DNA of 64,000 bases from Woeseiaceae bacterium (GTDB lineage: Bacteria; Pseudomonadota; Gammaproteobacteria; Steroidobacterales; Woeseiaceae), in assembly GCA_028277185.1 (NCBI GenBank), contig JANQGQ010000010.1, positions 1 through 64,000 on the forward strand, given 5' to 3'. This document shows, one piece after another, positions 24,680 through 41,947 of this stretch. The position numbers were made by a program, and so were the translations under genes. The notes beneath the pieces were generated by a model. That model was not told where the DNA came from. It did not search any database and was given only the letters and a program-made list of their open reading frames with translations. Every line of letters begins with the position of its first letter. The first letter of the stretch is position 1.

Positions 24680-25984
24680 ATGCTGCGCGCACGGCAGAAG
24701 CTGGGCAAGTACACGATCCTCGGCCGCATCGCGTCGGGTCCTCTCGCCGACGTCTATCGTGCGTACGATCGTATTCAGCGGCTGCGCGTAGCGCTCAAGG
24801 TCCCACGGATGGCGGACCATAGCGGGCACGACGAGTTCCTCAAAGAAGTGCAGGTCGCGACCCGCCTCAGGCACCCGAACCTGCTCGGGGTGCTCAACGC
24901 CAGCTACATCGGCGAGCACTTCGTGATTGCGATGGAGCTCGGCGAAGAATCGCTTGCCGACCGGCTCGAACGGCGAATATCGACGGCGAACGCGCTGGAT
25001 CTGACCGGCCAGGCGCTGCAGGCACTCGCCTGTGTCCACGAAAACAAGGTCATCCACTGCGATATCAAGCCCGAGAACTTCATCCTTTTTCCAGGGAACC
25101 GCCTCAAGCTTTGCGACTATGGTTTCGCGAAGGTGAGTCTCAGGACCCTGAAGGCCTCGGGATCCGGAACGATAGACTACATCGCACCTGAGCAGGCCAT
25201 GGGACGGCCCAAGTTTCAGTCCGACGTCTTTTCGATGGGGCTCGTCATCTATCGGCTGTTGTCGGGCACACTGCCCGAATGGCCCTTCGAGTGGCCGCTG
25301 CCCGGCCAGGACCGGTTGATGCAGCGGGTTCGGCCGGATTTCGTGCGCTTTCTCGAACGGGCGATTCAGATCGATCCGAAGCAGCGCTTCGTCAACGGCA
25401 TCGCGATGCAGGCCGCGTTCGAGCGCCTGCGCGCGCACGCCCGCCGCCAGCGCGACGGTCGGAAGCGTGCGGGTGGCAAGAGTTCCGGTGTGCACAACGT
25501 GAGCTGGCAGCAAATCCGCTGGCGGGAGTTTCGCCGTCGCTTCGGCCGCACCCTCGACCTCAAGCACCGTTGCCGCCACTGCGAAGGGCCGGTAGCGGAG
25601 AGCATGCAGGCCTGCCCGTGGTGCGGCTTCGACAATCCGACGCGCCGGGCCGAGTCGGTCATGCCGTCGTCCTGCCCGCGCTGCGAGCGCGGGGTGAAGA
25701 AGGACTGGGACTACTGCGCCTGGTGCTACGGTCCCGGATTCGTCGAAGAGACGACGCGGCGCTACCCGGACAAACGTTACACCGCCACCTGCAGCAACAA
25801 GCGCTGTCGCGGACCCTTGATGCCGTTCATGCGCTATTGTCCCTGGTGCCGAACCAAAGTTCGCAAACCGTGGAAACTCGAGGGCAGCAAGTCGACCTGC
25901 AAGGCCTGCGGCTGGGGGATTGCGGCGGACTTCTGGAACTTCTGCGCCTGGTGCCGGGAGCCCGTGCCGAGGAAGCAGGGATGA
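24680..25984 (+). CDS. Ser/Thr protein kinase with four C-terminal zinc ribbons
   Basis: This 434-residue cytoplasmic protein has no membrane helix. The kinase domain (about 10-255) has the ATP lysine in RVALKVP (Lys40), the catalytic loop VIHCDIKPENF with HCD in place of HRD (Asp128 kept), and CDYG (Asp146) in place of DFG. A GSGTIDYIAPEQ activation segment is present. Residues 295-430 hold four paired CxxC knuckles: CRHC/CPWC, CPRC/CAWC, CSNKRC/CPWC and CKAC/CAWC, i.e. four zinc ribbons. A zinc-ribbon kinase next to PP2C and vWA genes recalls the TerY-associated triad (family knowledge). It heads the locus. Its stop overlaps the PP2C start. Confidence 0.9.
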   Translation: MLRARQKLGKYTILGRIASGPLADVYRAYDRIQRLRVALKVPRMADHSGHDEFLKEVQVATRLRHPNLLGVLNASYIGEHFVIAMELGEESLADRLERRISTANALDLTGQALQALACVHENKVIHCDIKPENFILFPGNRLKLCDYGFAKVSLRTLKASGSGTIDYIAPEQAMGRPKFQSDVFSMGLVIYRLLSGTLPEWPFEWPLPGQDRLMQRVRPDFVRFLERAIQIDPKQRFVNGIAMQAAFERLRAHARRQRDGRKRAGGKSSGVHNVSWQQIRWREFRRRFGRTLDLKHRCRHCEGPVAESMQACPWCGFDNPTRRAESVMPSSCPRCERGVKKDWDYCAWCYGPGFVEETTRRYPDKRYTATCSNKRCRGPLMPFMRYCPWCRTKVRKPWKLEGSKSTCKACGWGIAADFWNFCAWCREPVPRKQG

Positions 25985-26838
25985 GCGCGGCCGACATGCT
26001 GCTGTTGGATGGCGCCACTACGCCGGCGCAGCAGCTGGCTCCCATGGGCGGCGGACGACTGCTTGCGTACACGGCCCGGGCACCGGACAAGGACACTCAT
26101 AACGAGGACACGGTCGCCAGCATCCCCTGGGGACCCGATGCCTGTGTACTCGTCATCGCCGACGGTGCCGGCGGGCTCCCGGCTGGCAAGCGGGCGTCAC
26201 TGTTGGCTGTGAGGACGCTCGCCGAGTCGCTCGAGGTTGCCGAGGGCAAGACGACGCTTTTGAGAACCGCGGTGCTCAACGGTATCGAAGCTGCGAACGA
26301 AGCGATTCGCGCCGAAGCCAACGGTTCTGCGACGACGCTGACCATCGTGACGATCGAGGGGCATCTGGCGCGCAGCTACCAGGTCGGCGACTCGGAAGCC
26401 GTGATCGTCGGACAGCGCGGCCGAATCCGACTCCAGACGCTTGCCCATTCGCCGACCGGCTTTGCTGTGGAGGCGGGCTTTCTCGACCAGCGGGACGCGC
26501 TGCATCATGCCGACCGTCATGTCGTGTCGAATTTCGTGGGCAACGACGACATGCGTATCGATATCGGCGCCGGGGTGATTCTGAACCCGCGCGACACGGT
26601 GCTCCTCGCCAGCGATGGGCTGACGGACAATCTGCATATCCACGAGGTCGTCGAGCGCATGCGCACGGGTACGCTCGAAAGCGCCATGGATCGGATCGTC
26701 GGTCTTGCGACGCGGCGCATGGCCGAAAGCGACAATAAAACGCCGTGCAAACCGGACGATCTGTCGTTGATCCTCTACCGCAAACCGTACCAGCGCGCGA
26801 AGCCGGGACAACAGCGCCAGCCGGCATCCGACGGTTGA
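25981..26838 (+). CDS. PP2C-type Ser/Thr protein phosphatase
   Basis: This 285-residue cytoplasmic phosphatase starts at an ATGA overlap with the kinase, so the two should be made in matched amounts. PPM-family metal-binding residues are in HNEDTVA, VIADGAGGLPAG (the DGxGG motif), LASDGLTD and PDDLSLIL. SATTLTIV and YQVGDSEAVIV are the usual strands. The protein probably reverses the phosphorylation made by its partner kinase and possibly by the membrane kinase at 29401. Substrates are not known. The FHA protein at 35368 is an obvious candidate reader of the phosphate mark. Confidence 0.92.
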   Translation: MSAADMLLLDGATTPAQQLAPMGGGRLLAYTARAPDKDTHNEDTVASIPWGPDACVLVIADGAGGLPAGKRASLLAVRTLAESLEVAEGKTTLLRTAVLNGIEAANEAIRAEANGSATTLTIVTIEGHLARSYQVGDSEAVIVGQRGRIRLQTLAHSPTGFAVEAGFLDQRDALHHADRHVVSNFVGNDDMRIDIGAGVILNPRDTVLLASDGLTDNLHIHEVVERMRTGTLESAMDRIVGLATRRMAESDNKTPCKPDDLSLILYRKPYQRAKPGQQRQPASDG

Positions 26839-27007: not shown

Positions 27008-28147
27008 ATGAAGACGACCCACACTACTGCTTCGATTCCCGCGTGGTTGCGGCCGCTCCTGCTGGCTTTGGCGGTGCTGGCCGTCGGCACGGCGTGCAAT
27101 GAGGATTCCGGGCCGTCATCCCCAAGCGGCGGTGGCTCGTCAGGTGGCGGCGCTTCCGGCGGCGGCTCATCCGGCGGCGGTTCGTCGGGCGGCGGCTCGT
27201 CCGGCGGTGGCTCGTCCGGTGGCGGTATGCCCAGCCCCGGGGGTTCGTCCGGAGGTGGCTCGTCCGGCGGCGGGATACCGAGTCCCGGCGGCCCGTCCGG
27301 TGGCGGTTCATCCGGCGGCGGTACGAACATCCCCACGCCCGGCGGTTCAACCGGAGGTGGCTCACCCGGAGGCGGCATGCCGAGTCCGGGAGGGTCGACT
27401 GGCGGTGGCTCGTCCGGCGGAGCCGGCATCCCGTCGCCGACTGGCGGTTCGGGCGGTTCCGACATGGGCATACCCGCACCCGGCGGCTCCGGCGGCGTGG
27501 GCGGACCCGACATCGGTGGCGCGGGCGGTCAGAGCGGCGGCGACAGCGCCGGCGGCGACGGTGATGGCGACGGCGACAGCAGCGGCGATTGCGGCAGCGC
27601 CGGCGGTATTCCGGGCGGTGTCGGCGGCATGGGCCAGGACGGCGACTGTCTCGGCGGCGGAGGTGGTGCCGGCAGCAGCGCCGATGGCGCTGCCGGGATG
27701 GGCGGCGAAGGCGGCAGTGTCGGCGAGTTTCCCAGCGAAAGCGACGCGGAGCGCGCCGAGCGGCTCGGCCAGGTCCTCGATGAGTCCTTAGGCGATTTCG
27801 ACGAGGTGCTGCACGAGGAACAGGAAGAGGTCGCGGCAGTCGGCCGCAACACCGAGGGCTTCGGCGGCGGTGGCGGCGGCAGCGGCGGGGTCAGCCTCGG
27901 CGAGCAGGCCGGCAGCGGTGGCAGCGGCGGTTCCGTGGCCGTCGTCAACGAAGGCGCGGTGCGCCCCGAATCGCCGACGGCTTCGATGTCGGAGGACGAG
28001 ATCCGCGAGCGGACGCCGGAAGACGTTCCGATGGCGGCTGACGACGACATCATTGCGCGCCAGCTCCGCGAGGCGGCGCTGGCCGAGGAGGACGCCGAGC
28101 TTCGCGAGCGCCTCTGGGAAGAGTATCGGAAGTACAAGGGACTGTAA
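27008..28147 (+). CDS. Gly/Ser-rich putative lipoprotein
   Basis: This 379-residue protein has a hydrophobic N-terminus (about 14-32) ending in AVGTACNED. The Cys at about 33 could be lipidated, although -3 is Gly rather than Leu, so the lipobox is poor. About 40-290 is low-complexity: SSGGG and GIPSPGG-type repeats, then Gly/Asp-rich sequence. The last 70 residues are charged and probably helical (EDEIRERTPEDVPM...LWEEYRKYKGL). I do not recognise the family. The ribosome site GGAGG is 10 bases before the ATG. It may be an envelope-spanning flexible tether in this locus (inference). Confidence 0.7.
   Translation: MKTTHTTASIPAWLRPLLLALAVLAVGTACNEDSGPSSPSGGGSSGGGASGGGSSGGGSSGGGSSGGGSSGGGMPSPGGSSGGGSSGGGIPSPGGPSGGGSSGGGTNIPTPGGSTGGGSPGGGMPSPGGSTGGGSSGGAGIPSPTGGSGGSDMGIPAPGGSGGVGGPDIGGAGGQSGGDSAGGDGDGDGDSSGDCGSAGGIPGGVGGMGQDGDCLGGGGGAGSSADGAAGMGGEGGSVGEFPSESDAERAERLGQVLDESLGDFDEVLHEEQEEVAAVGRNTEGFGGGGGGSGGVSLGEQAGSGGSGGSVAVVNEGAVRPESPTASMSEDEIRERTPEDVPMAADDDIIARQLREAALAEEDAELRERLWEEYRKYKGL
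27127..27430 (+). repeat. Low-complexity Gly/Ser codon repeat
   Basis: Within the gene above, units close to ggcggctcgtccggcggt recur many times, encoding SSGGG runs broken by PSPGG. Unit boundaries are imperfect. Such tracts tend to change length by slippage, so copy number may vary between strains. Confidence 0.75.
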
Positions 28148-28165
28148 GGAGTGGTGAGTCCGGCC

Positions 28166-29395
28166 ATGTTGCGTGCCGTCGGAATTGCAGCGGTGGCGTT
28201 GTTCGCCGCCCAGGGTTGCGCCGTCAAGGAAGTCGTGACGGCGGAGGAAACCGAGTTGGTGGTCGCCGCCGCCCCGGTCGAGGAGCATTTGCTGCTCGAT
28301 ATCGGGATCGTCGAGTTCGACAATGGCGTGCCCGAGGACAACGACCCGGCGAGTACCGGTGTCTTCGAGGAGATACGCTCGGCCGAGGCCCGGTACCTGC
28401 CGTATCACCTGAAGTCGACGCTGCAGGGCACCGGCCATTGGGGCGCCGTGCGCGTGGTGCCTTCGGAACAGGCCTTTACCGACGTCATCGTCAGCGGCAG
28501 CATCGAGAAATCGGACGGCGAGTTCGTGACGCTCAGAGTGCGGGTAGACGATGCAAGCGGCCGACACTGGTTCGAGAACCGCTACAGCGCGCAAACCGGA
28601 ATGTCGTCGTATTCGACGAATCGCGACCGGCGTCAGGACCCCTATCAGAAGGTCTTCAACGATATCGCCAACGATCTCCATCAGCACGCCCAAACGCTCG
28701 GCAATGAGCAGGGCGCCCGGATTCGCGAGATATCGGAAATGCAGTTTTTCGCCGACATGTCGCCGGCGCCGTTTGCGGATTACCTGGCCACGGATGAGGA
28801 CGGCATGCGTACGCTCGTCCGACTCCCGGCCGAGAACGATCCGAGCGTCGCGCGCCTGCGGCAGATCCGCGAGCGCGACCGCCTCGTCGTGGACACCCTC
28901 AACGACCACTACGCGAATTTCTATTACGGCATCGCGATCCCATACCATGCCTGGCGCAAGACGGCTCGCGAGGAGTCGATAAACTACCGTCAGGTAAGGC
29001 GTTCGGGGACGATCAGGGCGCTCATGGGCGCGGTGGTGCTGGCGGGCTCGCTGGCAATGGATACCGACAATAGTTCGAGTCGTTCGACGCGCCGCATGAA
29101 GCGTTCGCTGCAGGCGATCGGTGTTTCCCAGGGCGTCGATCAGATCTTCATGGGTTTCTCGCGGCGTTCCGAGGCCGGACTTCACGCCGAGGCGATTCGC
29201 GAGCTGTCGGAATCCTTCGGTTCCGAAGCGGCGCCCATGCTCGTGACGGTGCGGGGCGAGACGCGGCGTCTGACGGGCACTGCGGCGGCTCAGTACGAGA
29301 GTTGGCGTCGCCTGCTCCGGGAAATCTACGAGGCCGAGACGGGCTTCCCGAGCGACGAAGAACTGGGGACACCCGAGCGCGCGCCTGAAACCTGA
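28166..29395 (+). CDS. Lipoprotein of unknown function in the kinase/vWA locus
   Basis: This 409-residue protein has a signal sequence and a convincing lipobox (FAAQGC, lipidated Cys near residue 18). The mature part starts with an acidic stretch, followed by a domain with LLLDIGIVEFDNG...YLPYHLKSTLQGTGHWGAVRVVPS and DVIVSGSIEKSDGEFVTLRV. This resembles the TolB-N-like or Curli-type secretion domains that compute beta strands (structural impression only). A later hydrophobic segment is TIRALMGAVVLAGSLAM. I do not recognise the family. It lies 18 bases after the previous lipoprotein and 5 bases before the membrane kinase, so it is surely co-transcribed. A GTG at 28151 is an alternative start. 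Confidence 0.7.
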   Translation: MLRAVGIAAVALFAAQGCAVKEVVTAEETELVVAAAPVEEHLLLDIGIVEFDNGVPEDNDPASTGVFEEIRSAEARYLPYHLKSTLQGTGHWGAVRVVPSEQAFTDVIVSGSIEKSDGEFVTLRVRVDDASGRHWFENRYSAQTGMSSYSTNRDRRQDPYQKVFNDIANDLHQHAQTLGNEQGARIREISEMQFFADMSPAPFADYLATDEDGMRTLVRLPAENDPSVARLRQIRERDRLVVDTLNDHYANFYYGIAIPYHAWRKTAREESINYRQVRRSGTIRALMGAVVLAGSLAMDTDNSSSRSTRRMKRSLQAIGVSQGVDQIFMGFSRRSEAGLHAEAIRELSESFGSEAAPMLVTVRGETRRLTGTAAAQYESWRRLLREIYEAETGFPSDEELGTPERAPET

Positions 29396-29400
29396 TTGCC

Positions 29401-31749
29401 ATGAGTGACCGGTCTGGTTTGCGCGAGCTCCGGCCCGGCGCCGAGCTGCTTGATCGCTATCGGTTGAAGCGCCGGCTCGGCCGTGGCGGGGAAGCCGAGA
29501 CCTGGCTGGCTGCCGACCGGATGACCGGGGCAGCCGTCGCGCTGAAGATCCTCAACGCTCCCGATGGGAACCGCGGTGTTCTGCATCGCGAGTGGCAGAC
29601 GTCGATTCGGCTCGTGCATCCGCACATCGCCCGCACTTTCGAGTTTCACGACGATGCAGCAGGCGCCTTCTACAGTCTGCAGTACGTCGAAGGCCCCGCT
29701 GCCGGCGTGCTTGCCGGCGCCGCGGCCAGGGCGGTGCTGCCGGTCATAGCGGCGATTGCCGACGCGCTGCGCTACGCCCACGGAAAAGGCATCGTGCACC
29801 GGGACGTCAAGGCCGACAACGTCCTGCTGGATGCGAACGGAGCGCCGTACCTGATCGATTTCGGCGTTGCCGCGCCGGTCGGACAGGCCGCCAGCGGCGG
29901 TTCGCCGATTGCCGCCTCTCCAGCACAGCTCGATGGCGGGGTTGCCGCTACCGGGGACGACGTGTTCGCGCTCGGCGGGCTGGCCTACGAGTTGTTGGCC
30001 GGACGGGCGCCGTACTCCGGAGCCGATCTGGCCGAAGCGATCGAACACGAAGTGCCGCCCCCGGTCGCTGCCGCCAACGGTGAAGCGCTTCCCGAGGCGG
30101 TAACCGCGCTCGTCGCGGCGATGCTTGCGAAGGACCCGGCGGCGCGGCCCGGTGCTGCCGAAGTCGTCGAAACCCTGGCCGCCGCAGGCTTTCGGCCGGG
30201 CGCCGCTCCCGCGGACCTCGTCGCCAGACCCGGAGACTCCGGCACGGAGACTGTCGAGTCTCAGGCGGCCCGTTTCCGCAAGCCCGCGCCGTCCGCCACG
30301 ACGCCAGCGGCGGCGGAGCCGCGCGGCGGTATACAGCCGCTTGCGGTGTATGGATCGTTCGCCGTCCTGCTGCTGTTGCTTCTCGGCGTCGTGTTCTACC
30401 TGCCGGACCGCGTTGCCGACGCGCCGCCCGCGGAACCGGCCGACGAACCCGCCGTCCCGGCCGAGCCGGAGCCCGAGACGACCCCGGTTATCCGTGACGA
30501 GCCTCCGGCACGGGATGCCAGGGTGGAATCCCGGCAGGTCACCGAAGCCGTTTTGGGCCGCTTGCTGTCGATGATGCAGACGCTCGAAGCGCGTGCCGTG
30601 CAGCGCTGGGGCGGATTGACCTATGCGCAGGGCAGGGCGGCGTACGAGGCAGGCGACGAGGCCTTCCTCGATCGCGACTACGAAACCGCGGCTGCCGAGT
30701 ACGAAAAGGCGATCGGCTTGCTCGAACCTCTGCTGGACCAGGTCAACACGGTGTTTGCCGACACGCTTGCCCGCGGTCTCGCGGCGCTCGACGACGGCGA
30801 TGCGACGGCGGCGCTGGAAGCACTCGACCTCGCGGTGGCGGTAAGCCCCGGCGACCGGCAGGCGCAGGAGGGGCTCGAACGGGCGAGAAACCTGGAGCAG
30901 GTATTGTCCCTCGTCGCGTCGGGGGAGCGCTACGAGGGCAACCTGGAGTTCGATCTCGCTCTCGAGGCGTTCGGACGTGCCAACGAGATCGATCCGCTCT
31001 GGGCGCCGGCAAGCGACGGTATTGCCCGGGTGCGGGCAGCGGCGATGCAGATGGACTTCGACTCGCGAATGAGCGAGGGGCTTGCCGCGCTTGCCGTCGA
31101 GGACTTCGCCACCGCGCGGGCCGCCTTCAGGCGGGCCGAGGCATTGCGCCCCGGATCCAGCGAGGCGCGCGACGGACTGCTGCAGGTGGATCAGGGCGTG
31201 CGGCTCCAGCGTATTCGCCTGCTCGAACAGGAGGCGGCGGCGGTAAGCGCGGACGAGCGCTGGGAAGACGCCGTCAGCACTTACGAAGCGATCCTCGAAC
31301 TCGATCCGAATCTGGCCTTCGCACAGCAGGGGCTTCAGGACGCCAATCGGATGGTGAACGTCCACCGGGAGTTCGATCGCTACATCGCCGAACCCGATTC
31401 CCTGAGCTCGCCGGCGACGATGCAGCGCGCGACGAACCTGGTCGTATCGGTGACGCGTCTTCCGGAAGTCGGACCGAGGCTCGAGGCTCAGCGCGACGAG
31501 CTGTCCCGCCTGTTGAAACGTGCAGCGACACCCCTTACCGTCGAACTGGTATCGGACAACGTCACCGAGGTGTCGATTCACCGCGTTGGCCGGCTGGGCA
31601 GTTTCAGCTTGCGGCGCGTGGAGCTGCGGCCGGGAACGTACGTTGCCGTCGGCAGCCGGCCTGGCTATCGCGACGTGCGGGTTGAGTTCCGCGTTGCGCC
31701 CGAAGAGGACATGCAGCCCGTCGTCGTGCAGAGTGAGGAGCCAATTTGA
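29401..31749 (+). CDS. Transmembrane Ser/Thr protein kinase with periplasmic repeats
   Basis: This 782-residue protein has a cytoplasmic kinase domain (about 19-265) with GRGGEAE, ATP lysine Lys49 in VALKIL, HRDVKADN (His133, Asp135) and IDFGVA. A linker follows, then one transmembrane helix (about 316-335: YGSFAVLLLLLLGVVFYLP). The periplasmic part has an acidic Pro/Glu-rich stalk, then about 350 residues of helical TPR-like repeats (AAAEYEKAIGLLEP, ALEAFGRANEIDP, AAFRRAEALRPG). A C-terminal PEGA-like segment (RVELRPGTYVAVGSRPGYRDV) closes it. The topology suggests sensing in the periplasm and phosphorylation in the cytoplasm. Its stop overlaps the TTG start of the next gene by four bases. 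Confidence 0.9.
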   Translation: MSDRSGLRELRPGAELLDRYRLKRRLGRGGEAETWLAADRMTGAAVALKILNAPDGNRGVLHREWQTSIRLVHPHIARTFEFHDDAAGAFYSLQYVEGPAAGVLAGAAARAVLPVIAAIADALRYAHGKGIVHRDVKADNVLLDANGAPYLIDFGVAAPVGQAASGGSPIAASPAQLDGGVAATGDDVFALGGLAYELLAGRAPYSGADLAEAIEHEVPPPVAAANGEALPEAVTALVAAMLAKDPAARPGAAEVVETLAAAGFRPGAAPADLVARPGDSGTETVESQAARFRKPAPSATTPAAAEPRGGIQPLAVYGSFAVLLLLLLGVVFYLPDRVADAPPAEPADEPAVPAEPEPETTPVIRDEPPARDARVESRQVTEAVLGRLLSMMQTLEARAVQRWGGLTYAQGRAAYEAGDEAFLDRDYETAAAEYEKAIGLLEPLLDQVNTVFADTLARGLAALDDGDATAALEALDLAVAVSPGDRQAQEGLERARNLEQVLSLVASGERYEGNLEFDLALEAFGRANEIDPLWAPASDGIARVRAAAMQMDFDSRMSEGLAALAVEDFATARAAFRRAEALRPGSSEARDGLLQVDQGVRLQRIRLLEQEAAAVSADERWEDAVSTYEAILELDPNLAFAQQGLQDANRMVNVHREFDRYIAEPDSLSSPATMQRATNLVVSVTRLPEVGPRLEAQRDELSRLLKRAATPLTVELVSDNVTEVSIHRVGRLGSFSLRRVELRPGTYVAVGSRPGYRDVRVEFRVAPEEDMQPVVVQSEEPI

Positions 31750-34184
31750 GCTTTGACCACCTGATTGTCCGCGACGTCGAGGGCGAACGTCGCGTAGCCG
31801 CGAGCGCGCTGCCGCTGCGTCTCGGAACGGGTGGCGATAGCGACATCCGTCTGCCCGGTCCCGGCGGCGGCCCTGTCGTTCTCATCGATCTGCTCGACGG
31901 CGCGCCGTTTGCCCAGCCCGTCGGTCGCGACGGCAGCATCACGCTCAACGGAGAGCCTCTGGTCGCCAGCCGCAAGCTCGACGACGGTGACACGCTGGCT
32001 TTTTTCGGCAGTCGTATCGAGGTCTCGGCTGCGGACGATCGACTGATGCTCAGCGTACGCCTCGAGGACAGCGCCTACGTGACGCGTCCGCCGGAGCTCG
32101 AGGACACCGAAGCGGCCGCGCGTGAGGAAGCGATCATGCCCGCGGCGTTCCGGCGCGCCGCCGAAACCCGCGCGCTCGAGCCTGCCGCGGACCGCCACAT
32201 ACTGCGCTGGGTGCTGATAAGCGGCTTCGTCGTGTTGGGGGTACTCGCCTGGTTGCTGTTCACGTCGCGCAGCATCGAAATTGCCGTGACGCCGGAGGCA
32301 CCCGACAGAATCGACATCCGCGGTGGCTGGTTCCGGTTGCCGCTCGGCAACCGTGTTCTGCTTCGCGAGGGCGACTACTCGCTCGAGGTGGAGAAGGCCG
32401 GCTACTACGACGTCAACCAGTCGTTCACGGTGGACGACACGCCAAGCCGCACGATCGAGGTGACGCTCCGCAGGCGTCCCGGGGAGGTGATCGTGTACAC
32501 GGCCGACGGCGCGCAAGCGACCGTCACGATCAACGGCAGCATCGTGGGTGAGGCGCCGTTGGGGCCCGTCGAGCTGCAGCCGGGCGAGCACACGCTCGAA
32601 GTGCAGTCCGAGCGATACCTGCCGGTTCTGCACGCGTTCGAGATGGCCGGGCTGGCCAGATCCGATCGAATCACCGTGCAGCTCGTGCCGCGCTGGGCCA
32701 ACGTGACGATTACGTCCGAACCGTCGGGTGCGAACATCCTCGCCGACGATGAGCTCGTCGGCACCACGCCGGCCGTGATCGAGCTGATCGAAGGGGAGCA
32801 CACGCTCTCGGTAGTCCGCGAAGGGTTCAAAGCGTGGGACGGAAACGTCGTAACGCGGCCCAACGAGGCCCTGGAGCTGCCGTTGATCGAGCTGGAAGCC
32901 GCCGATGCGCGGTTGCTCGTAAATACGGTGCCGCGCGGCGCGAACGTCACGGTGGACGGGCGCTACCGCGGTCAGTCGCCGATCACGATCGATCTGGCTC
33001 CCGACGTCAACTACACGATTGGCCTGTCCAAGGCCGGCTACGGTTCGGCGACACGCGAGGTTCGCCTCGCGTCGGCCGCAAGCGAGCAGATAACCGTCGA
33101 TCTGAGCGCGAGGACGGGGCGCGTTACGGTCAACGTCTCGCCGGCCGACGCGACGGTCTACGTTGACGGCCGCGCCCGGGGTACCGGCACGACGACGTTG
33201 GACCTGAGTTCCGCGCCGAAGCGCATCGAAGTACGCAAGGCCGGGTACGAGACCTGGCAACGGACGATCACGCCCAGGCCGGGCTATCCGCAAACGCTGA
33301 GCGCGCGCCTCAGGAGCGATGCCGACATCGCGGCCGCAAGCATTCAGCGCGAGCAGACGACCGAAGAGGGTCACGTACTGCGGCGGATCGAGCCCGGCGA
33401 GTTCCGGCTGGGCTCGTCGCGCGGCGAAGCCGGCAGGCGGGCAAACGAGGTGATCGTTCCGGTGAGGCTGACGAGGCCGTTCCTGATCGGCGTGAACGAG
33501 GTGACGAACCGGCAGTTCGCGGCTTTCGATCCGGCCCACGACTCCGGCGCCGATTTGAGTCCGACCATGGCGGGCGACAACAATCCGGTCGCGAACGTGA
33601 CGTGGACGCAGGCCGTCCGATATCTGAACTGGCTGAGTGCCAAAGAGGGCCTCAATCCCGTCTACAAGGAGGAGTTCGGCGAGTGGGTGGCGATCCGGCC
33701 GTTCCCGAACGGCTATCGCCTGCCGACCGAAGCGGAATGGGCGTGGGCAATCCGCTATGAGGGCAACCCCAATGCGCTCAGGTTTCCCTGGGGCGAAGGC
33801 TGGCCGCCGCGCAGGGTCACGGGTAACTTCGCCGACCAGTCCGCGGATGGCATTGCACCGACGCTGATACCCGATTACGACGACGGCTTCACGGCAACTT
33901 CGCCCGTCGGCAATTTTCCGGCCAATGCAGCAGGCCTGCACGATGGCGGCGGCAACGTTGCCGAATGGACCAACGATTACTACGCCGTTCCAACGCCCGG
34001 TCAGACACGGCCGGTCGTCGACCCGCTGGGTCCAGAGCGCGGGCGAAGCAACGTGATTCGCGGATCGAGCTGGCGACACGGCACGGAAACCGAGCTAAGG
34101 CTGAGCTATCGGGATCAGGGCACCGAGGCGAGACCTGACTTAGGTTTCCGGATCGCGCGCAATCTGGAACCGGCCGCAGAGTAG
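31746..34184 (+). CDS. FHA-like / TM / five-PEGA / formylglycine-enzyme-like membrane protein
   Basis: This 812-residue protein starts at TTG (TTGA overlap with the kinase). Residues 1-105 look like a degenerate FHA domain (RLGTGGDSDIRLPG, LNGEPL, LDDGDTLAFFGS). A helix follows at about 155-173 (LISGFVVLGVLAWLLFT). Then come five PEGA-type repeats of about 60 residues (for example VTITSEPSGANILADDELVG, VNVSPADATVYVDGRARG). Last is a formylglycine-generating-enzyme-like domain (about 545-805) with YRLPTEAEWAWAIRYEG, GNVAEWTNDYY and VIRGSSW. The whole protein has no cysteine that I can find, so the catalytic Cys pair of true FGE is absent and this domain is probably a binding module. It likely sits in the periplasm beside the kinase. 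Confidence 0.88.
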   Translation: MSFDHLIVRDVEGERRVAASALPLRLGTGGDSDIRLPGPGGGPVVLIDLLDGAPFAQPVGRDGSITLNGEPLVASRKLDDGDTLAFFGSRIEVSAADDRLMLSVRLEDSAYVTRPPELEDTEAAAREEAIMPAAFRRAAETRALEPAADRHILRWVLISGFVVLGVLAWLLFTSRSIEIAVTPEAPDRIDIRGGWFRLPLGNRVLLREGDYSLEVEKAGYYDVNQSFTVDDTPSRTIEVTLRRRPGEVIVYTADGAQATVTINGSIVGEAPLGPVELQPGEHTLEVQSERYLPVLHAFEMAGLARSDRITVQLVPRWANVTITSEPSGANILADDELVGTTPAVIELIEGEHTLSVVREGFKAWDGNVVTRPNEALELPLIELEAADARLLVNTVPRGANVTVDGRYRGQSPITIDLAPDVNYTIGLSKAGYGSATREVRLASAASEQITVDLSARTGRVTVNVSPADATVYVDGRARGTGTTTLDLSSAPKRIEVRKAGYETWQRTITPRPGYPQTLSARLRSDADIAAASIQREQTTEEGHVLRRIEPGEFRLGSSRGEAGRRANEVIVPVRLTRPFLIGVNEVTNRQFAAFDPAHDSGADLSPTMAGDNNPVANVTWTQAVRYLNWLSAKEGLNPVYKEEFGEWVAIRPFPNGYRLPTEAEWAWAIRYEGNPNALRFPWGEGWPPRRVTGNFADQSADGIAPTLIPDYDDGFTATSPVGNFPANAAGLHDGGGNVAEWTNDYYAVPTPGQTRPVVDPLGPERGRSNVIRGSSWRHGTETELRLSYRDQGTEARPDLGFRIARNLEPAAE

Positions 34185-34265: not shown

Positions 34266-34535
34266 ATGGCTATGCAACGATTGGCGACGCTGCTTGCGGG
34301 TCTCGCCTTGCTGACGGCGTCTGCCGTTGCGCAGGACGACCGCGGCGAGCAGGAGGCACCGGATACCGAGGCGAGTGCCGAACAGGTCGACGAGCCCGCA
34401 GCAAGCGACGATACCGAACTACTCGACGATCCCGAACTCGATATGCAGGGATTCGACCCCACCGCCGACGACGACTTCATTCCGAGCGAAGAGATCCCGG
34501 CCGACGAACCGATTGCGTTCCCCACCGATATTTGA
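34266..34535 (+). CDS. Small acidic exported protein
   Basis: This 89-residue protein has a signal peptide (MAMQRLATLLAGLALLTASAVAQ, cleavage after AVA-Q). The mature part is strongly acidic (about 65 residues, with few Lys or Arg), for example SDDTELLDDPELDMQ and PSEEIPADEP. A ribosome site GGAG lies 8 bases before the ATG at 34266. I do not recognise the family. It sits three bases before the ExbB-like gene and so belongs to the same transcript. It could be a periplasmic plug or partner for that machine, which is inference. Confidence 0.6.
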   Translation: MAMQRLATLLAGLALLTASAVAQDDRGEQEAPDTEASAEQVDEPAASDDTELLDDPELDMQGFDPTADDDFIPSEEIPADEPIAFPTDI

Positions 34536-34538: not shown

Positions 34539-35339
34539 ATGCAAAAGAAGAACATCCCAGTCGAATTTGTGTTTCAGCTCTTTGCGCTGATTATCGCCGT
34601 GATCGTCGTTCACGCGTTTTATGTTTCCGTCGTCCGTCCGAACGCCGAGCAAATCATCGAGGAACAGAATGCCGCCGCGGCCGCGGATCCGGACTATGTG
34701 CGCGAGCGCCATGTGTGGGTACTCATCAAGGATCTGGAACAGGAGGCCTGTTTCATCCTGATGTTCTGGGCGCTTGCAATCATGGGCTACAAGGCCGTGA
34801 AGATAATGGGTGAGCGGCGGCTGCTCGATATCGAACTCGTGCCGGTTGCGGAGGGTATGCGAATACTCCCGGAGGATACGCGCGAGTTTGCGCGTCAGGT
34901 CCAGTCGCTGCCTGAGGACCGGCAGCGAATGCTGCTGCCGCGCGCGCTTATGAATGCGTTGCGCCGTTTCGGCACCACGCGAAACATCCAGGACGTGTCG
35001 AGCAGCACCCACACGATTTGCGAGTCCGAAGCGGAACGCCTGGAGTCCGAGTTGTCGATGATTCGCTACATCTCCTGGGCGATTCCGAGTATCGGCTTCA
35101 TCGGTACGGTCCGCGGTATCGGCGAGGCACTCGCACAAGCGGACAAAGCCGTGCAGGGGGATATCGCGGGCGTTACTCAAAGCCTGGGCGTCGCGTTCAA
35201 CTCGACATTCATCGCGCTTCTCATCAGCATCTTCCTGATGTTCCTCGTGCACCAGCTCCAGCTCATGCAGGAGCGTCTGGTGTTCGACAGCGAGGCATAC
35301 TGCGACGAGAAGCTGATCCGCCACATGCAGGCGGACTGA
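34539..35339 (+). CDS. MotA/TolQ/ExbB-type proton-channel subunit
   Basis: This 266-residue inner-membrane protein has hydrophobic segments at about 9-32, 69-89, 178-198 and 216-240, with a cytoplasmic helical part at 90-175. The last two helices carry the ExbB/TolQ/MotA signature: ISWAIPSIGFIGTVRGIGEA, then AGVTQSLGVAFNSTFIALLISI, including the small-residue and Thr pattern that lines the ion path. These proteins form pentamers around a dimer of ExbD/TolR/MotB. No classical ExbD or MotB gene is nearby. The two vWA proteins at 36725 and 37838 have the N-terminal helix and Asp expected of the partner, so this is likely the A subunit of a new motor. Confidence 0.9.
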   Translation: MQKKNIPVEFVFQLFALIIAVIVVHAFYVSVVRPNAEQIIEEQNAAAAADPDYVRERHVWVLIKDLEQEACFILMFWALAIMGYKAVKIMGERRLLDIELVPVAEGMRILPEDTREFARQVQSLPEDRQRMLLPRALMNALRRFGTTRNIQDVSSSTHTICESEAERLESELSMIRYISWAIPSIGFIGTVRGIGEALAQADKAVQGDIAGVTQSLGVAFNSTFIALLISIFLMFLVHQLQLMQERLVFDSEAYCDEKLIRHMQAD

Positions 35340-35367: not shown

Positions 35368-36735
35368 GTGAGTCTGCTGGCTGCACACATCAACGACGCC
35401 GGGATTACGGTTCTCGGCGAGCGCGGTGTCGTTTACCGCGAACCCGGATTCGCGCTGCTCGACGATCGGGAGCTTTATACCGGCGAGAAGGCCTTCGCGA
35501 ACGCGAGGCTCAAGCCGCGGCGCATACACAACCACTACTGGAGTTCGCTCTCGGCCGAGCCGCTCAGCGACGCGCGGTTTCGGCACCTCACGGCAGCGGA
35601 TCTCGTCAGCCTGCAGCTCGAGTCGCTATGGGCCTTGTCCTCGAAAGCGGGTGACCGCCTCATCGTCGCCGTCCCGCCGAGCATGAACGGTGAGCAATTG
35701 GGCCTGTTTCTCGGTATCGCCGACGCGCTCGGTATCCCGATCGTCGCCATGGTGGACGCGGCCGTGTCGGCGACCCGCCGCGAGTATCCGGGAGCCGTCC
35801 CGGTACACGTCGATCTCGGTCTGCACGGAGCGCTCCTGACGCGGCTCTCGCAAAACGGGCAGGCGCAGGTCGAGCGGAGCGCCGTGGTGGACGATGTCGG
35901 CGCCGTGGCGCTCACGGATACGTGGATCAAGTCGATTGCCGGCGCATTCGTCAGGCAGTCGCGCTTCGATCCGCTGCACACCGCGGAAACGGAGCAGCTG
36001 ATGCAGGACCGGCTGCCGGAGTGGCTGTCGCTCCTCGCTGCGCGGGACAGTGTCGAAGTCGCGATCGACTACCGGGGTATCGAACACCGCGCCGAACTGG
36101 ACAGACTGGAAGTCATAGCGGCGGTCGAGCCGCTGTATCAGCGGCTCGTCGGGCAGCTACGCGCCCTGTTTCGGGCCGACGAACACCCCGCGATTCAGCT
36201 CAGCGATCGCGCCGCGCGGCTTCCGGGTCTCGCGGATGCGCTTTCCGCGCGGGTGGGTGGCGACGTCTTCATGCTCGAGGCCGGCGCGACCGCGCGCGGA
36301 CTGCTGGCCCGCTGCCGCGAGATGCAGCGTTCCTCGAGCAGCGTGGCTTTGCTGAAGCAGCTGCACTGGGATCAGTCGCCGGCCGCAATCGGGCAATCGT
36401 CGCAGGGCGACGACGGCAAGAGGCCGAGCCATCTGCTGTTCGGTGCGCGCGCCTGGCCGATCGACAGTCAGGTACTCGTGCTGGGCTCGCAGCCGGCAGA
36501 AGGCGAGCGCTTCGTCGATTTGCCCGCGGACATGCCCGGTGTCTCGCGGCGGCATTGCGCGCTTCGCCAGCAGGGCGGACAGTGCATCGTCGAGGACTAT
36601 TCGCGCTACGGGACTTTTCTGAACGGTCACCGGATTGAAGGTTCGGCCGTGCTGCAGGCGGGCGATCAGCTCAGGATCGGCACGCCGGGACACGAGTTCA
36701 AGCTGATCGTGACGGAGGCCGCGCATGCGCCGTAG
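35368..36735 (+). CDS. Actin/Hsp70-like ATPase fold fused to an FHA domain
   Basis: This 455-residue cytoplasmic protein starts at GTG after GAGGCGGAATC. Residues 1-340 resemble the ASKHA fold (actin, Hsp70, PilM, FtsA): a first phosphate-loop-like hairpin (AAHINDAGITVLGERGVVY), RLIVAVPPSMN, and a second one (VHVDLGLHGALLTRL). Residues about 370-450 form a good FHA domain: VLVLGSQPAEG, PGVSRRHCALR, DYSRYGTFLNGHRI and LQAGDQLRIGTPG, with the Ser-Arg-Arg-His phosphothreonine-binding pattern. It should read phosphate marks made by the locus kinases. Its stop lies 11 bases inside the next gene. ATP binding is not proven; the Gly-rich loop is less complete than in DnaK. Confidence 0.78.
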   Translation: MSLLAAHINDAGITVLGERGVVYREPGFALLDDRELYTGEKAFANARLKPRRIHNHYWSSLSAEPLSDARFRHLTAADLVSLQLESLWALSSKAGDRLIVAVPPSMNGEQLGLFLGIADALGIPIVAMVDAAVSATRREYPGAVPVHVDLGLHGALLTRLSQNGQAQVERSAVVDDVGAVALTDTWIKSIAGAFVRQSRFDPLHTAETEQLMQDRLPEWLSLLAARDSVEVAIDYRGIEHRAELDRLEVIAAVEPLYQRLVGQLRALFRADEHPAIQLSDRAARLPGLADALSARVGGDVFMLEAGATARGLLARCREMQRSSSSVALLKQLHWDQSPAAIGQSSQGDDGKRPSHLLFGARAWPIDSQVLVLGSQPAEGERFVDLPADMPGVSRRHCALRQQGGQCIVEDYSRYGTFLNGHRIEGSAVLQAGDQLRIGTPGHEFKLIVTEAAHAP

Positions 36736-37822
36736 ACGTCGCGAAGGCAACGTATTCAGCATGTCGTTTCTCGACTGCATGAGCTGCGGTTTCGGCGCCG
36801 TGATCCTGTTCTTCATGATCATCAACGCGCAAGTTAAGGAGACTACGGAGAACGATCCCAGCAACCTGATGGCCGAAACGCGGATGCTCGAAGAAGAGAT
36901 ACTCGAAGGGCGGAAGAATCTGGTGCTGGCGAGGAATACGCTCGAGCAGGTGGAAACCGAGCAGGAGACCGCCGAGGGCGAGATAGCGCGAATACTGGCG
37001 CTGATAGAGGAGCTGCGCGCCGAACTCGCGGAGTACGATGAGGATTCGCTTGCGAAGATCGAACGCGTCGAGCAGCTCCAGTCGGATATCGAGCTGCTCG
37101 AAGAAGAGGTCAAGCGGCTGCTTGCTTTACGGGAAGAGCAGGAAAACCAGGGCACGAGGCTCAGGGAGTTCAAAGGGGAGGGCGACCGGCAGTACCTGAC
37201 GGGCCTGAAGCTCGGCGGTCAGCGAACGCTCGTGCTCGTGGACCGGTCGGCCAGCATGCTCGACAGCACCATCGTCAACATCATTCGCCGGCGCAACATG
37301 TCCGATGCAGAGAAGCTGCGTGCCGTCAAATGGCGGCAGGTCGTCGCGACCGTGGACTGGCTGACGTCGCAGTTCCAGCCGGGCAGCGAGTTTCAGATCT
37401 ACATGTTCAACAACGAAGCGCAGCCGGTGATCAGGGGCAGCGACGGCACCTGGCTCAAGGCCGACGACGCCAGCCAGCTCAACGAGGCGATTCGCGTGTT
37501 GCGGCGGACGGTGCCGGAAAACGGCACCAACATGCGGGCGGCCTACGCGATTGCCGACAGTCTTACGCCCAGGCCCGACAACATCATTCTGCTGGTCGAC
37601 GGGCTGCCCACGCTGGGAGAGTCGACGAGCGCCCGGAACATGATCAGCGGCCGGGAGCGGGTCAACCTGCACCGCCGCGCCATCCGCGAACTCCCCAACG
37701 GCGTTCCGGTCAATATTCTTCTGTATCCAATGGAGGGCGATACGGACGCCGCCATCCTCTACTGGACGCTGGCTTATGCCACGCAGGGTTCGTTCATGAG
37801 CGTCAGTCGTGACTGGCCTTAA
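36725..37822 (+). CDS. Membrane-anchored vWA protein with ExbD/MotB-like helix (1)
   Basis: This 365-residue protein has a poly-Arg N-terminus (MRRRRREG), then one helix: FSMSFLDCMSCGFGAVILF (11-29), with Asp17 in the position of the ion-carrying Asp of ExbD and MotB. Residues 45-150 form a long coiled coil. The vWA domain (about 160-365) has a canonical MIDAS, LVDRSASM (Asp173, Ser175, Ser177), and later DGLPTLG. Topology by positive-inside is N-in with the vWA domain periplasmic. The start codon at 36725 overlaps the FHA gene by 11 bases. The vWA may bind a metal-dependent ligand or another envelope part. It is a likely partner of the ExbB-like protein. Confidence 0.87.
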   Translation: MRRRRREGNVFSMSFLDCMSCGFGAVILFFMIINAQVKETTENDPSNLMAETRMLEEEILEGRKNLVLARNTLEQVETEQETAEGEIARILALIEELRAELAEYDEDSLAKIERVEQLQSDIELLEEEVKRLLALREEQENQGTRLREFKGEGDRQYLTGLKLGGQRTLVLVDRSASMLDSTIVNIIRRRNMSDAEKLRAVKWRQVVATVDWLTSQFQPGSEFQIYMFNNEAQPVIRGSDGTWLKADDASQLNEAIRVLRRTVPENGTNMRAAYAIADSLTPRPDNIILLVDGLPTLGESTSARNMISGRERVNLHRRAIRELPNGVPVNILLYPMEGDTDAAILYWTLAYATQGSFMSVSRDWP

Positions 37823-37837
37823 CTCGAGGAGTGTCTG

Positions 37838-38839
37838 TTGAAGCGCCGCCGCCGCAACGTCGAAGCGTTCAGCCTGTCGTTCCTCGACTGCATCTGCTGT
37901 GGTTTCGGTGCAATCATTTTGCTGCTGGTGCTCAGCAAGATCTACGAACCCGTCATCATCGAAAAAACGCAGGATGACCTGGAGTCGTTGATCGCCCTGC
38001 TCGAGCAGGAGCTGTTCGAGATACGGGGCGAAACGGCCGTGCTGGACCGCACGCTGGAAGACAAGCGCGAGCAGACGTCGGCGACCAGGCTCCAGCTGGC
38101 ACGGCTGCAGGGTGAGCTGAGTACGGTGCGCGGGCAGTTTCAGGCAACGCAGCAGGAGTCGGAGTCGATACTCGACGAGGGCGCACTGATGGCGGCCAGG
38201 CAGCGTCTGACCGAGGAAATGCGTCGGCTGCAGCCGTACTTCCGCCGGGCAAGCGACGATGCGGTCGGCGGCATTCCGGTCGACAGCGAGTACATCATCT
38301 TCGTGATCGATACCTCGGGCAGCATGCAGCAATACAACTGGCGACGCGTTCAGGAAAAGATCACCGAGACCCTGGATGTCTATCCGGAAGTGAAAGGCAT
38401 CCAGATCATGAACGACAACGGGAACTTCATGTTCTCGCAGTATCGCAACCGCTGGATTCCGGACTCGCCGGGCCGCCGGCAGGCGATCGTCAACACGCTC
38501 CGTACGTGGCGGCCGTTCAGCGACTCCAATCCGGCCGATGGCATCATCTACGCGATCAATACGTTCTGGCAGCCCGACAAGAAGATCAGCATCTACGTGT
38601 TCGGCGACGAGTTCAGCGGCCGCTCCGTCGAGGCGGTCGCACGGCAGATCGACGCGGTAAACCGGAAAACGGCCGACGGTAATCGGCTCGTTCGCATTCA
38701 CGCCGTCGGCTTCCCCTATCTTTTCAACAGCGGCGGCAACGTTCCGCCGACGGCCGTGCGCTTCTCGCAGCTCATGCGGGTTATCTGCGAGCGCAACGGC
38801 GGCACCTTCGTGGCACTTACAGACTTCCGCGGCGCCTGA
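37838..38839 (+). CDS. Membrane-anchored vWA protein with ExbD/MotB-like helix (2)
   Basis: This 333-residue paralogue starts at TTG, 8 bases after a good GAGGAG site. It has the same plan: MKRRRRNVEA, then the helix FSLSFLDCICCGFGAIILL with Asp17, a coiled coil at about 45-135, and a vWA domain (about 150-333) with a canonical MIDAS DTSGSM (Asp158, Ser160, Ser162). FLDC and CGFGA are identical to the previous protein, but the vWA domains differ markedly. Two such proteins suggest either a heterodimeric B subunit or two alternative partners. The last residues are FVALTDFRGA. It is 15 bases after the first vWA gene. Confidence 0.87.
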   Translation: MKRRRRNVEAFSLSFLDCICCGFGAIILLLVLSKIYEPVIIEKTQDDLESLIALLEQELFEIRGETAVLDRTLEDKREQTSATRLQLARLQGELSTVRGQFQATQQESESILDEGALMAARQRLTEEMRRLQPYFRRASDDAVGGIPVDSEYIIFVIDTSGSMQQYNWRRVQEKITETLDVYPEVKGIQIMNDNGNFMFSQYRNRWIPDSPGRRQAIVNTLRTWRPFSDSNPADGIIYAINTFWQPDKKISIYVFGDEFSGRSVEAVARQIDAVNRKTADGNRLVRIHAVGFPYLFNSGGNVPPTAVRFSQLMRVICERNGGTFVALTDFRGA

Positions 38840-38917: not shown

Positions 38918-38951
38918 TAGTCTCCACGGAACAGCCGTCACATGGAGACTA
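38918..38951 (+). promoter_or_regulatory. 9-bp inverted repeat covering the ribosome site of the OmpA-like gene
   Basis: TAGTCTCCA (38918-38926) pairs perfectly with TGGAGACTA (38943-38951) across a 16-base loop. The right arm contains the GGAG ribosome site (38944-38947) of the gene starting at 38957. As RNA it could hide the site and make translation conditional. As DNA it could be an operator. A TTTAAT -10-like box overlaps the left arm (38913-38918), which would favour the DNA reading. Confidence 0.5.
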
Positions 38952-38956
38952 ATGAC

Positions 38957-39688
38957 ATGAAACGAACGACTATCGCGATCGCCGCTTCGGCCATCATCGC
39001 CGCGACGCTTGCCGCGGTACCCGCACAGGCGAAAGCATCGAAGGAAGAAACGGTCGGCGTGGGCGCCGGCGGCCTGATCGGCGCCGCGGCCGGCGGACCG
39101 GTCGGGTTCATCATCGGCGCCGCGATCGGTGCCAAGATCGGCGACAGCTTTCATCAGAAGAACGAGCGCATCGATACGCTGTCGGCAGACCTCGATGTCT
39201 CGCGCGAAACGATAAGCGATCTCGAACTGGACGTCGCCGCGCTCAACCGCGACATCGACGCGATGGCCGACGATCTCGCTCACATGCAGCGCGTGTCGTA
39301 TCCGGAGCTGACGCGTCTGCTCGAAGCCGGCGTGGCAATGGACCTGCCGTTCCGTACCGACGAGCACGTTCTGCCGGAGTCGACGACCGAACGGTTCGCC
39401 GTGCTCGGCAAGAAGCTTGCGACGATGCCGAACGTGCAGGTTCGGCTCGACGGTTTTGCCGATCAGCGCGGCGCAAGCGAGTACAACCAGACGCTGTCCG
39501 AGAAGCGCGTTGCCGAGGTCCGCGAACTCCTGCTGGCAGCCGGCGTGTCGCCGGAGCGGATCACGACCGCCGCGCATGGCGAAACCGAGGTAACGGACCC
39601 GTCGCCCGACACTCTGGCTCTGGAACGTCGCGTAAGCGTCACGCTGAGCCTTGCCGGCGAGGCATCGTTTGCCGCGAACCCGGAGTAA
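38957..39688 (+). CDS. OmpA-family outer-membrane/periplasmic protein with glycine zipper
   Basis: This 243-residue protein has a signal peptide (about 1-24, ending PAQA). A Gly-zipper follows (VGVGAGGLIGAAAGG...GFIIGAAIGAKIGD), then a coiled coil (NERIDTLSADLDVSRETISDLE), then a C-terminal OmpA-like peptidoglycan-binding domain (VRLDGFADQRGASEYNQTLS, RVAEVRELLLAAGVSPERI). It matches the Gly-zipper OmpA proteins such as the sortase-associated PdsO group, with no sortase gene seen here. The start at 38957 gives a proper signal peptide; the ATG at 38942 would put five extra residues in front. It may anchor the preceding machine to the cell wall, which is inference. Confidence 0.87.
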   Translation: MKRTTIAIAASAIIAATLAAVPAQAKASKEETVGVGAGGLIGAAAGGPVGFIIGAAIGAKIGDSFHQKNERIDTLSADLDVSRETISDLELDVAALNRDIDAMADDLAHMQRVSYPELTRLLEAGVAMDLPFRTDEHVLPESTTERFAVLGKKLATMPNVQVRLDGFADQRGASEYNQTLSEKRVAEVRELLLAAGVSPERITTAAHGETEVTDPSPDTLALERRVSVTLSLAGEASFAANPE

Positions 39689-40242: not shown

Positions 40243-40571
40243 ACCCCCAATCTACCATGCAAGCAGCCGCACAAAGCCCTTTGTCTCTATGAGCGAGGAA
40301 ACTCTGCGTTCGCATTTCCTGGTGCAACTGAACTGCAAACGCTTGATTGAGAAACGCAGCGAATCCGGCTGGATCTGTTGCTTTTCTCACGGAGGCGACC
40401 CAAACCGGGAAACGACAGAGTAGACTCGCTGGAGACATCCGTTCGCCCATCGTTTCTCGTGATTCTCCGCGGTTTTGGGTCGGTCGGATCGTCTACTTCT
40501 CCATATTTTTCAGAGAGTTGTCGGTATACTGGATGCATGTACAGGCGCCAGCAACGCTGAGGTAGAAGCCC
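40243..40571. other. Intergenic region, no gene seen
   Basis: This 329-base gap separates the DUF1801 gene from the HNH gene. It is lower in GC than its neighbours. Short open frames on both strands show no family resemblance. The right end has the promoter-like box and a GAGG ribosome site of the HNH gene. Confidence 0.6.
40525..40530 (+). promoter_or_regulatory. -10-like box before the HNH gene
   Basis: TATACT matches five of six consensus bases, 42 bases before the ATG at 40572. No good -35 is seen. Confidence 0.3.
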
Positions 40572-41947
40572 ATGACAACCGCTCTCACCGCCATCTCGCC
40601 ATCACCTCACCCGAACACCGAAACCCTCGGCCGCCAGATCACCGAGTTGCGCGGCTACATCTACGCCGCGACCTACCGCCTGCTGGTGCTCATTCGCGAA
40701 TTCGACGAGCAGGACGGCTGGCATCAGCATGGTCTGTGTTCCTGTGCGCACTGGCTGAACTTCATTGCGGCATCGGCCTGAACGCGGCCCGCGAAAAAGT
40801 CCGGGTGGCGCGTGCCCTGAAGGATTTGCCGAAAATCAGCGCCGCCTTCGAGCAGGGACGGCTGAGCTATTCCAAGGTCCGCGCGATGACGCGCATCGCC
40901 GACGCGAGCAACGAAGACTACCTGCTGGTAGTCGCGAAGCACGGTACGGCGCAACACGTGGCGGGGCTCGTATCCAGATACCGCCGCTGCCGGCGCCTGC
41001 GGGACATCGAGATCGCCAACCAACAGCAACAGAACCGCAGGTTCTCGTATTACTTCGACGACGACGGCTGCCTGATGTTCAACGGTCGTCTGCCGGCCGA
41101 GCAGGGTGCACTGGTCGTCAAGGCGCTGCAGATGGCTGTTGAGAAAGCGTTCGCGGAAGCGTCCGGCCAGCGCGAGCCCGAGGCTGAATCCGAGGCGGAA
41201 TCCGGGCACCAGCCCGAACCTATCGCCGCACGCCGCGCGGACGCGCTGGCGACGATTACAGAGACATACATGAATTCCGAACCGGTAGCGAACGCGACGG
41301 GCGACCGCTATCAGGTCGTCGTGCATGTGTCCCGGGATACCTTGCATGACGTTACCGCGGAAACGTCCGACGAAGCCGGTGCGGAGCGGGCCCATCTCGA
41401 GAACGGTCCGCACGTTACCGCGGAAACGTCACGTCGGATCGCTTGCGATTGCTCGACAGTACACGTCGTAGAGGACGATCGCGGCGAACCGCTGTCCATT
41501 GGCCGCCGCAGCCGCTCGATCCCGCCGGCGATTCGTCGTGCGCTCAGACTCAGGGACCGGGGCTGCCGATTTCCAGGCTGTACTCACACCCGCTTCGTCG
41601 ACGGCCACCACATACAACACTGGGCCGACGGCGGCGAGACGAGCCTCGACAACCTGGTTCTATTGTGCCGGCGCCATCACCGGCTGGTGCACGAGGGAGG
41701 TTATGGCTGCAGACGGACCGCTGATGGGCATGTCGTGTTTACGGCACCGAATCGAAGTACGTTACCGGAGTCCTGGCCACTGCCGGGCCTCGTCGCCAAT
41801 CGGAATCCGTGCCAGTGGTTTCAGCGGAGGATTGCTGATCTGGAGATCGATTCGGAGACCTGCGTGCCGGAGTCGTACGCCGGTGACACAATGGACTGGC
41901 ACATGGCCGTTTCAACGCTGTTCGACATTGCTTCGCCGCCGCACTGA
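40572..41947 (+). pseudogene. DUF222/HNH endonuclease gene with a frameshift
   Basis: The start ATG at 40572 (GAGG 9 bases before) gives a typical DUF222 N-terminus: TLGRQITELRGYIYAATYRLL...CSCAHWLNF. After residue 64 this frame fails and ends at 40781. The family sequence resumes in the -1 frame as HCGIGLNAAREKVRVARALK and runs to 41947. The break is at about 40761-40764 and fits loss of one base. Near the C-terminus the HNH motif is intact: CRFPGCTHTRFVDGHHIQHW and LVLLCRRHHRLVHEGG. Either the gene is broken, or a sequencing error or programmed shift exists. No slippery sequence is evident. The family is often multicopy. Confidence 0.85.
41349..41430 (+). repeat. 19-bp direct repeat inside the HNH gene
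   Basis: acgttaccgcggaaacgtc occurs at 41349-41367 and 41412-41430, 63 bases apart (21 codons, so in frame; both encode VTAETS). Each copy is also a near-palindrome around ccgcgg. It may reflect an internal duplication or a self-target site. Confidence 0.75.

Follow-up and report, generated by a model that had tools for sequence, protein, structure and literature searches.

Two vWA proteins as candidate axle subunits of a TolQ-type motor in a conserved trans-envelope operon of Woeseiaceae

A 64,000-nucleotide stretch of the genome of a Woeseiaceae bacterium (assembly GCA_028277185.1, contig JANQGQ010000010.1, positions 1 to 64,000; hereafter the window) carries adjoining genes for two proteins with a vWA domain, here called vWA1 and vWA2, close to a gene of the TolQ/ExbB/MotA family. 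Sequence comparison and structure prediction suggest that vWA1 and vWA2 serve as the pair of axle (B) subunits in a 5:2-type, proton-driven motor formed with the TolQ-like protein; we put the probability of this reading at about 0.8. Both genes are part of a conserved trans-envelope operon of nine genes (in Table 1, from the Gly-rich lipoprotein to vWA2) that has barely been described before. The stator idea itself is an independent rediscovery of a prediction published in PMC12204202 (Mol Biol Evol 2025, msaf138).

Two open reading frames (starts set mechanically) fill the interval 36725-38839, where the original prediction, made from the sequence alone, had placed two vWA proteins. They are separated by 15 bases, and the vWA1 start overlaps the end of the preceding gene. 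The N-termini are MRRRRREGNVFSMSFLDCMSCGFGAVIL in vWA1 and MKRRRRNVEAFSLSFLDCICCGFGAIIL in vWA2 (TTG start). As had been claimed, both have an Arg-rich start (at least four arginines), the common pattern F-S-x-S-F-L-D-C-x-x-C-G-F-G-A-x-I-L, and Asp as residue 17. Mean hydropathy over all homologues gives one membrane segment near the N-terminus of each, centred on residue 24. AlphaFold2 (AF2) monomer models, built from 19 sequences for vWA1 and 18 for vWA2 and of moderate confidence (mean pLDDT 75-80), have helices at residues 14-38 (vWA1) and 15-33 (vWA2), then a long coiled-coil helix (45-141 and 45-111, respectively) and, in both, a Rossmann-like domain. Foldseek matches of the models are vWA and integrin I domains; Pfam places VWA_2 in vWA1 barely above its cut-off and VWA in vWA2 barely below. 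The D-x-S-x-S of the metal-ion-dependent adhesion site (MIDAS) is intact in vWA1 (D173/S175/S177, plus T268 and D292) and in vWA2 (D158/S160/S162, plus D257), with Ser230 of vWA2 probably occupying the MIDAS Thr position. MIDAS residues are near-invariant in both proteins, and with the models and the Foldseek matches this bears out the expected order of a coiled coil followed by a vWA domain with an intact MIDAS. Over the 14 residues preceding F-L-D, vWA1 and vWA2 homologues have on average a net charge of about +3. By the positive-inside rule, the positive flank of a transmembrane (TM) helix stays on the cytoplasmic side; we therefore predict that the helix is membrane-inserted, as the original prediction required, and N-in, with the coiled coil and vWA domain in the periplasm.

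Is the helix motif common to vWA1 and vWA2 a matter of chance? Homologues came from two sets. In an even draw of 274 genomes from the host's class, vWA1 was found in 20 (the host's included), with vWA2 adjoining in nearly all; the class-wide conservation set consists of 19 vWA1 and 18 vWA2 sequences. When GTDB contigs were scanned with the vWA2 alignment, 588 stretches were confirmed; the best 80 of them (the named loci) form the second set, and many of these come from metagenome assemblies. F15, L16, D17, C21 and G24 are invariant in both proteins in class homologues down to about 28-37% identity, so the shared motif is not due to chance. In the class and named sets together, Asp17, on whose conservation the stator idea had been staked, is present in 92/92 vWA1 rows reaching that region and in 98/98 vWA2 rows. 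Gly24 is likewise invariant in vWA1 and vWA2 rows, and Cys21 is kept in 92/92 and 96/98; the first Cys of the CxxC, Cys18, is not conserved, whereas the second, Cys21, is. For vWA2 in the named loci the Asp17 count involves some circularity, one of the two patterns used to find vWA2 containing the Asp, but the vWA1 count and the class-wide set are free of this, vWA1 not having been picked by the Asp-holding pattern. Cys21 lies one turn from Asp17 and could be part of a gate. In profile comparison of the helix alignments, vWA1 and vWA2 show clear mutual homology (99.7%). Every vWA1 row that reaches the end has Trp-Pro before the stop (window 37814-37819), usually as Asp-Trp-Pro, and this invariant tail suggests a binding contact.

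The motor partner named in the original prediction, the protein encoded from 34539, proved a good choice. It is a MotA_ExbB match (Pfam 53.6 bits, cut-off 22.9), and 19 of 19 homologues match the MotA/TolQ/ExbB profile (PF01618). Positions 147-255 of its profile align ungapped to the E. coli TolQ structure chain (E 0.018), which puts T190 on TolQ T145 and T223 on T178. In TolQ, T145 and T178 form a polar ring that hydrogen-bonds Asp23 of TolR (PMC12583513). Both T190 and T223 are invariant (82/82 homologues), and the gene is in the operon at 58/58 loci whose upstream sequence extends 3.7 kb or more. As in MotA, there may be four membrane segments, to judge from hydropathy maxima near residues 23, 80, 182 and 227. 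Elsewhere in the TolQ-like protein, Cys71 (window 34749-34751) is kept in 81/82 homologues, as is Asp65, the first of three acidic residues ahead of a membrane segment (window 34731-34745); the others, Glu67 and Glu69, are kept in 82/82. We know of no counterpart to these acidic residues in TolQ or ExbB.

The usual companion of such a protein is missing from the operon. The 4.4-Mb host genome has 13 MotA_ExbB and 13 ExbD matches, nearly all adjoining each other; the exceptions are the MotA_ExbB match in the window and another, perhaps MotA, at the beginning of contig C1. No ExbD match was found on the window's contig. An ExbD profile built from the host genome, which in leave-one-out trials recovers all of 12 ExbDs (E 2e-17 or better), found no ExbD in the operon in the 80 named and 19 class loci, its sole real matches being two genes in L068 that lie about 6 kb off on the opposite strand. 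ExbD does occur elsewhere in the host genome and in 33/33 other genomes checked. Since the TolQ-like gene is always there and a local ExbD is not, the axle position is vacant, and the vWA pair is the candidate to fill it. It could be argued that the vWA proteins instead attach sideways to the TolQ-like motor in the manner of TolA or TonB, the axle being another, unrecognised protein; a separate vWA family of the side-attaching kind, with an SHLS motif, does adjoin tolQ-tolR pairs (PMC12204202). Such an arrangement is improbable here: the cluster holds no tolR pair and the operon no ExbD, no SHLS occurs in the first 90 residues (TM helix included) of 99 vWA1 and 98 vWA2 rows, and side attachment gives no role to the invariant Asp in the helix. 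We see equally little chance that the helix is a mere anchor, with the vWA pair serving as a sensor or scaffold while the TolQ-like protein forms a non-rotating channel or assembly platform. Most of the operon does resemble a signalling or adhesion scaffold (kinase, FHA, PEGA, TPR, lipoproteins), but anchoring needs neither an invariant D17 and C21 nor an invariant Thr pair.

On sequence criteria vWA1 and vWA2 would not be classed as ExbD family members: Pfam finds vWA alone in both, with no PF02472 (ExbD/TolR) match, and the host ExbD profile gives sub-threshold matches only (E 0.016 or worse); at E ≤ 1, eight of its 19 matches are vWA rows, mostly via the hydrophobic segment after the Asp. 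Several observations weigh against an axle role. The expected alignment of the helix with that of ExbD was recovered weakly for vWA1 (44-residue helix alignment against the host ExbD helix with hhalign: 26%, E 7e-4, marginal) and not at all for vWA2 (0.9%, no better than controls). The vWA1 score does exceed those of 20/20 column shuffles (maximum 9%) and of the other segments tried (maximum about 4%), and the alignment pairs Asp with Asp, followed by a five-residue gap. Conserved small residues (C21, G24, A25) stand where TolR has leucines, so that the helix packing must differ. The first 15-20 or so residues of both AF2 monomers are of low confidence, and a literature search found no experiment on any operon member. 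The view that the pair works like ExbD, TolR or MotB is held because of the Asp, the partner and the gene replacement rather than sequence homology; that it is functionally stator-B-like is well supported.

PMC12204202 describes vWA proteins with a TolR-like transpore helix (TPH), a conserved Asp and heterologous pairs; this TPH-vWA family, modelled with AF3 and queried from Idiomarina, tightly co-occurs with tolQ, without tolR. As here, the TolQ homologue has the Thr ring and TolR/ExbD is absent; the family is reported in Proteobacteria and Verrucomicrobia. Our locus shows the same features, namely vWA domains behind an Asp-bearing TM helix, an adjoining Thr-ring TolQ homologue, no TolR/ExbD, and a heterologous pair, and we judge the pair to be of this family from the published description rather than from the Idiomarina sequence. 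Of the new stator class first proposed, a vWA-ended stator B protein is thus supported, but its novelty is not, having been predicted with AF3 models in that paper. Because its main text mentions no kinase, FHA (forkhead) domain, phosphatase or wider operon for the family, the operon description, the exact Thr mapping, the core status across the host family and the Trp-Pro end are additions.

Comparison with better-known motors shows what is shared and what is not. Like TolQ-TolR and ExbB-ExbD, the system has a MotA_ExbB-family pore protein with equivalents of Thr145 and Thr178, and a B helix whose Asp lies roughly three residues inside the TM segment. It differs in that the B subunits end in vWA instead of a small alpha/beta domain, in that the helix has small-residue CGxGA instead of a Leu-rich segment, and in the fourth TM segment that hydropathy suggests for the TolQ-like protein. 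With MotA-MotB it shares an A subunit that probably has four TM segments and the Asp in the B helix; unlike MotB, the vWA proteins lack an OmpA-like peptidoglycan-binding domain, a separate OmpA-like gene following in some loci only. The motor gene stands beside a gene for an FGE-domain envelope protein, as in GldL-GldM-GldK of type IX secretion, a likeness that we take to be an analogy: the FGE protein matches the NCBIfam GldK model far below cut-off (E 4e-20), a similarity that is that of the general FGE domain.

For the motor we infer the following arrangement. One vWA1 and one vWA2 N-terminal helix would sit inside a TolQ-like pentamer, with Asp17 of each alternately taking up and releasing a proton at the T190/T223 ring. 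This exchange would turn pentamer and axle against each other, and the coiled coils would transmit this motion to the periplasmic vWA domains, which may bind a partner via a metal ion at the MIDAS. The PEGA/FGE and TPR membrane proteins and both lipoproteins, all encoded in the operon, are the likely partners. In the host genome, the motor is probably tuned on its cytoplasmic side by the kinase domain and FHA domains that the operon also encodes. A variant has two homodimeric axles in two different motors. Known MotB, TolR and ExbD axles are homodimers, but there is a single TolQ-like gene per operon, and vWA1 and vWA2 are both present in 79/80 named loci, mostly no more than 30 bases apart. 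This co-occurrence makes us favour a heterodimer and regard the homodimeric variant as rather unlikely.

Table 1. Genes of the operon and its surroundings, with predicted helices (positions in the window)
Feature	Position	Strand	Description
Second Ser/Thr kinase	24680..25984	+	Zinc ribbons; same place in a congener; not core
PP2C phosphatase	25981..26838	+	About 11-15 kb upstream of vWA2 in close relatives; not core
Gly-rich lipoprotein	27008..28147	+	Lipobox VGTAC; about 40 C-terminal residues conserved
Lipoprotein LP2	28151..29395	+	Lipobox AAQGC; conserved, family unknown
Kinase/TPR membrane protein	29401..31749	+	Ser/Thr kinase domain (HRD, DFG present), TM, TPR region
FHA-like/PEGA/FGE protein	31746..34184	+	N-terminal FHA-like domain, TM, PEGA repeats, FGE-sulfatase domain
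Small acidic secreted protein	34266..34535	+	Signal peptide; start codon inferred; poorly conserved
TolQ/ExbB/MotA-family protein	34539..35339	+	266 aa; T190 codon 35106-35108, T223 codon 35205-35207
Hsp70-like/FHA cytoplasmic protein	35368..36735	+	Divergent Hsp70/actin-like ATPase-type domain, C-terminal FHA; overlaps vWA1 start
vWA1	36725..37822	+	365 aa; Arg-rich N-terminus, transpore-type TM helix (Asp17, Cys21), coiled coil, vWA domain, C-terminal Trp-Pro
vWA1 TM helix (predicted)	36764..36838	+	Residues 14-38; Asp17 codon 36773-36775
vWA2	37838..38839	+	333 aa; TTG start; architecture as vWA1; MIDAS DTSGS
vWA2 TM helix (predicted)	37880..37936	+	Residues 15-33; Asp17 codon 37886-37888
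OmpA-like protein	38942..39688	+	Glycine zipper; PdsO-like; same place mainly in Woeseiaceae relatives; not core

The operon recurs with few changes. Among the 48 loci that extend 8.8 kb or more upstream of vWA2, the TolQ-like, FHA-like/PEGA/FGE and vWA1 genes are present in all 48, the kinase/TPR gene in 47, LP2 and Hsp70-like/FHA in 46 each and the Gly-rich lipoprotein in 41; the small secreted protein was recognised in only eight. The kinase domain is optional, many kinase/TPR homologues having the TM and TPR part only. The FHA-like domain of the PEGA protein was missed by Pfam and is supported by hhalign profile comparison (93%). The Hsp70 label rests on weak matches (best PDB match DnaK, E 0.0044; Pfam HSP70 in 1/9 members). 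Kinase domain and canonical FHA motif are both present in 24 cases and both absent in 24, with FHA alone present in seven and kinase alone in none; striking as this looked, a joint loss of the two was rejected as unsupported on the tree, where well-supported branches yield two independent pairs. Only in the host's relatives do the zinc-ribbon kinase and PP2C genes lie near the operon, and an OmpA-like gene is near it in 25/80 named loci; the OmpA-like protein scores 130.6 against the NCBIfam model of sortase-associated PdsO (cut-off 152.2). Gene order can vary. In a Myxococcales metagenome-assembled genome (MAG; locus L088, 6685-18697) the operon forms two facing halves, with the TolQ-like, Hsp70-like, vWA1 and vWA2 genes on one strand and the PEGA/FGE, kinase/TPR and lipoprotein genes on the other, and in L046 (12202-15110) the TolQ-like gene follows vWA2 and is not ahead of the Hsp70-like gene. 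Further along the window (40475-41947) is a predicted protein with, by eye, an HNH-nuclease-like C-terminus (CRFPGC...HHIQHW...LCRRHHRLVH), as in DUF222/HNH proteins.

Within the host's family the gene is found in 58/61 genomes, including 37/37 good ones, which makes it a core gene of that family; in the phylum as a whole its occurrence is sporadic (15/398). The nearest named relatives are Woeseiaceae, and no close relative was found among plasmid records. By MAG record titles, the loci fall in Gammaproteobacteria, Rhodospirillales, Desulfobacterales, Myxococcales, Acidobacteria, Phycisphaerales and Kiritimatiellia. The distribution bears on a possible role of the cluster in anti-phage defence, as a relative of Zorya, whose ZorA-ZorB motor is of the same 5:2 family. 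The TolQ-like protein matches ZorA weakly (E 8e-4), and the kinases match PD-T4-6 kinase models, but so do generic kinases; no ZorC, ZorD, ZorE or other effector gene was recognised, the long cytoplasmic ZorA tail is absent, and defence systems are typically patchy, in contrast to a gene present in every good genome of the family. With only weak ZorA matches and core status in the host family, we rejected Zorya or other defence as very improbable indeed.

Few motors of the TolQ type have a known job, and the operon names candidate parts of an envelope machine. Being core in a marine family and having the same neighbour genes in distant phyla, it probably has an important envelope role. We offer as a tentative proposal, possible though short of likely, that it encodes a distinct trans-envelope machine in which a heterodimeric vWA axle in a TolQ-like pentamer drives or engages outer-membrane lipoproteins, with the PEGA/FGE and TPR proteins as the periplasmic scaffold in between, the switch being cytoplasmic Ser/Thr phosphorylation read by the FHA domains and the Hsp70-like ATPase. 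If vWA1 and vWA2 are indeed the axle of the TolQ-like motor, the output domain of an axle would be exchangeable for a general ligand-binding fold, and an axle could be obligately made of two different proteins.

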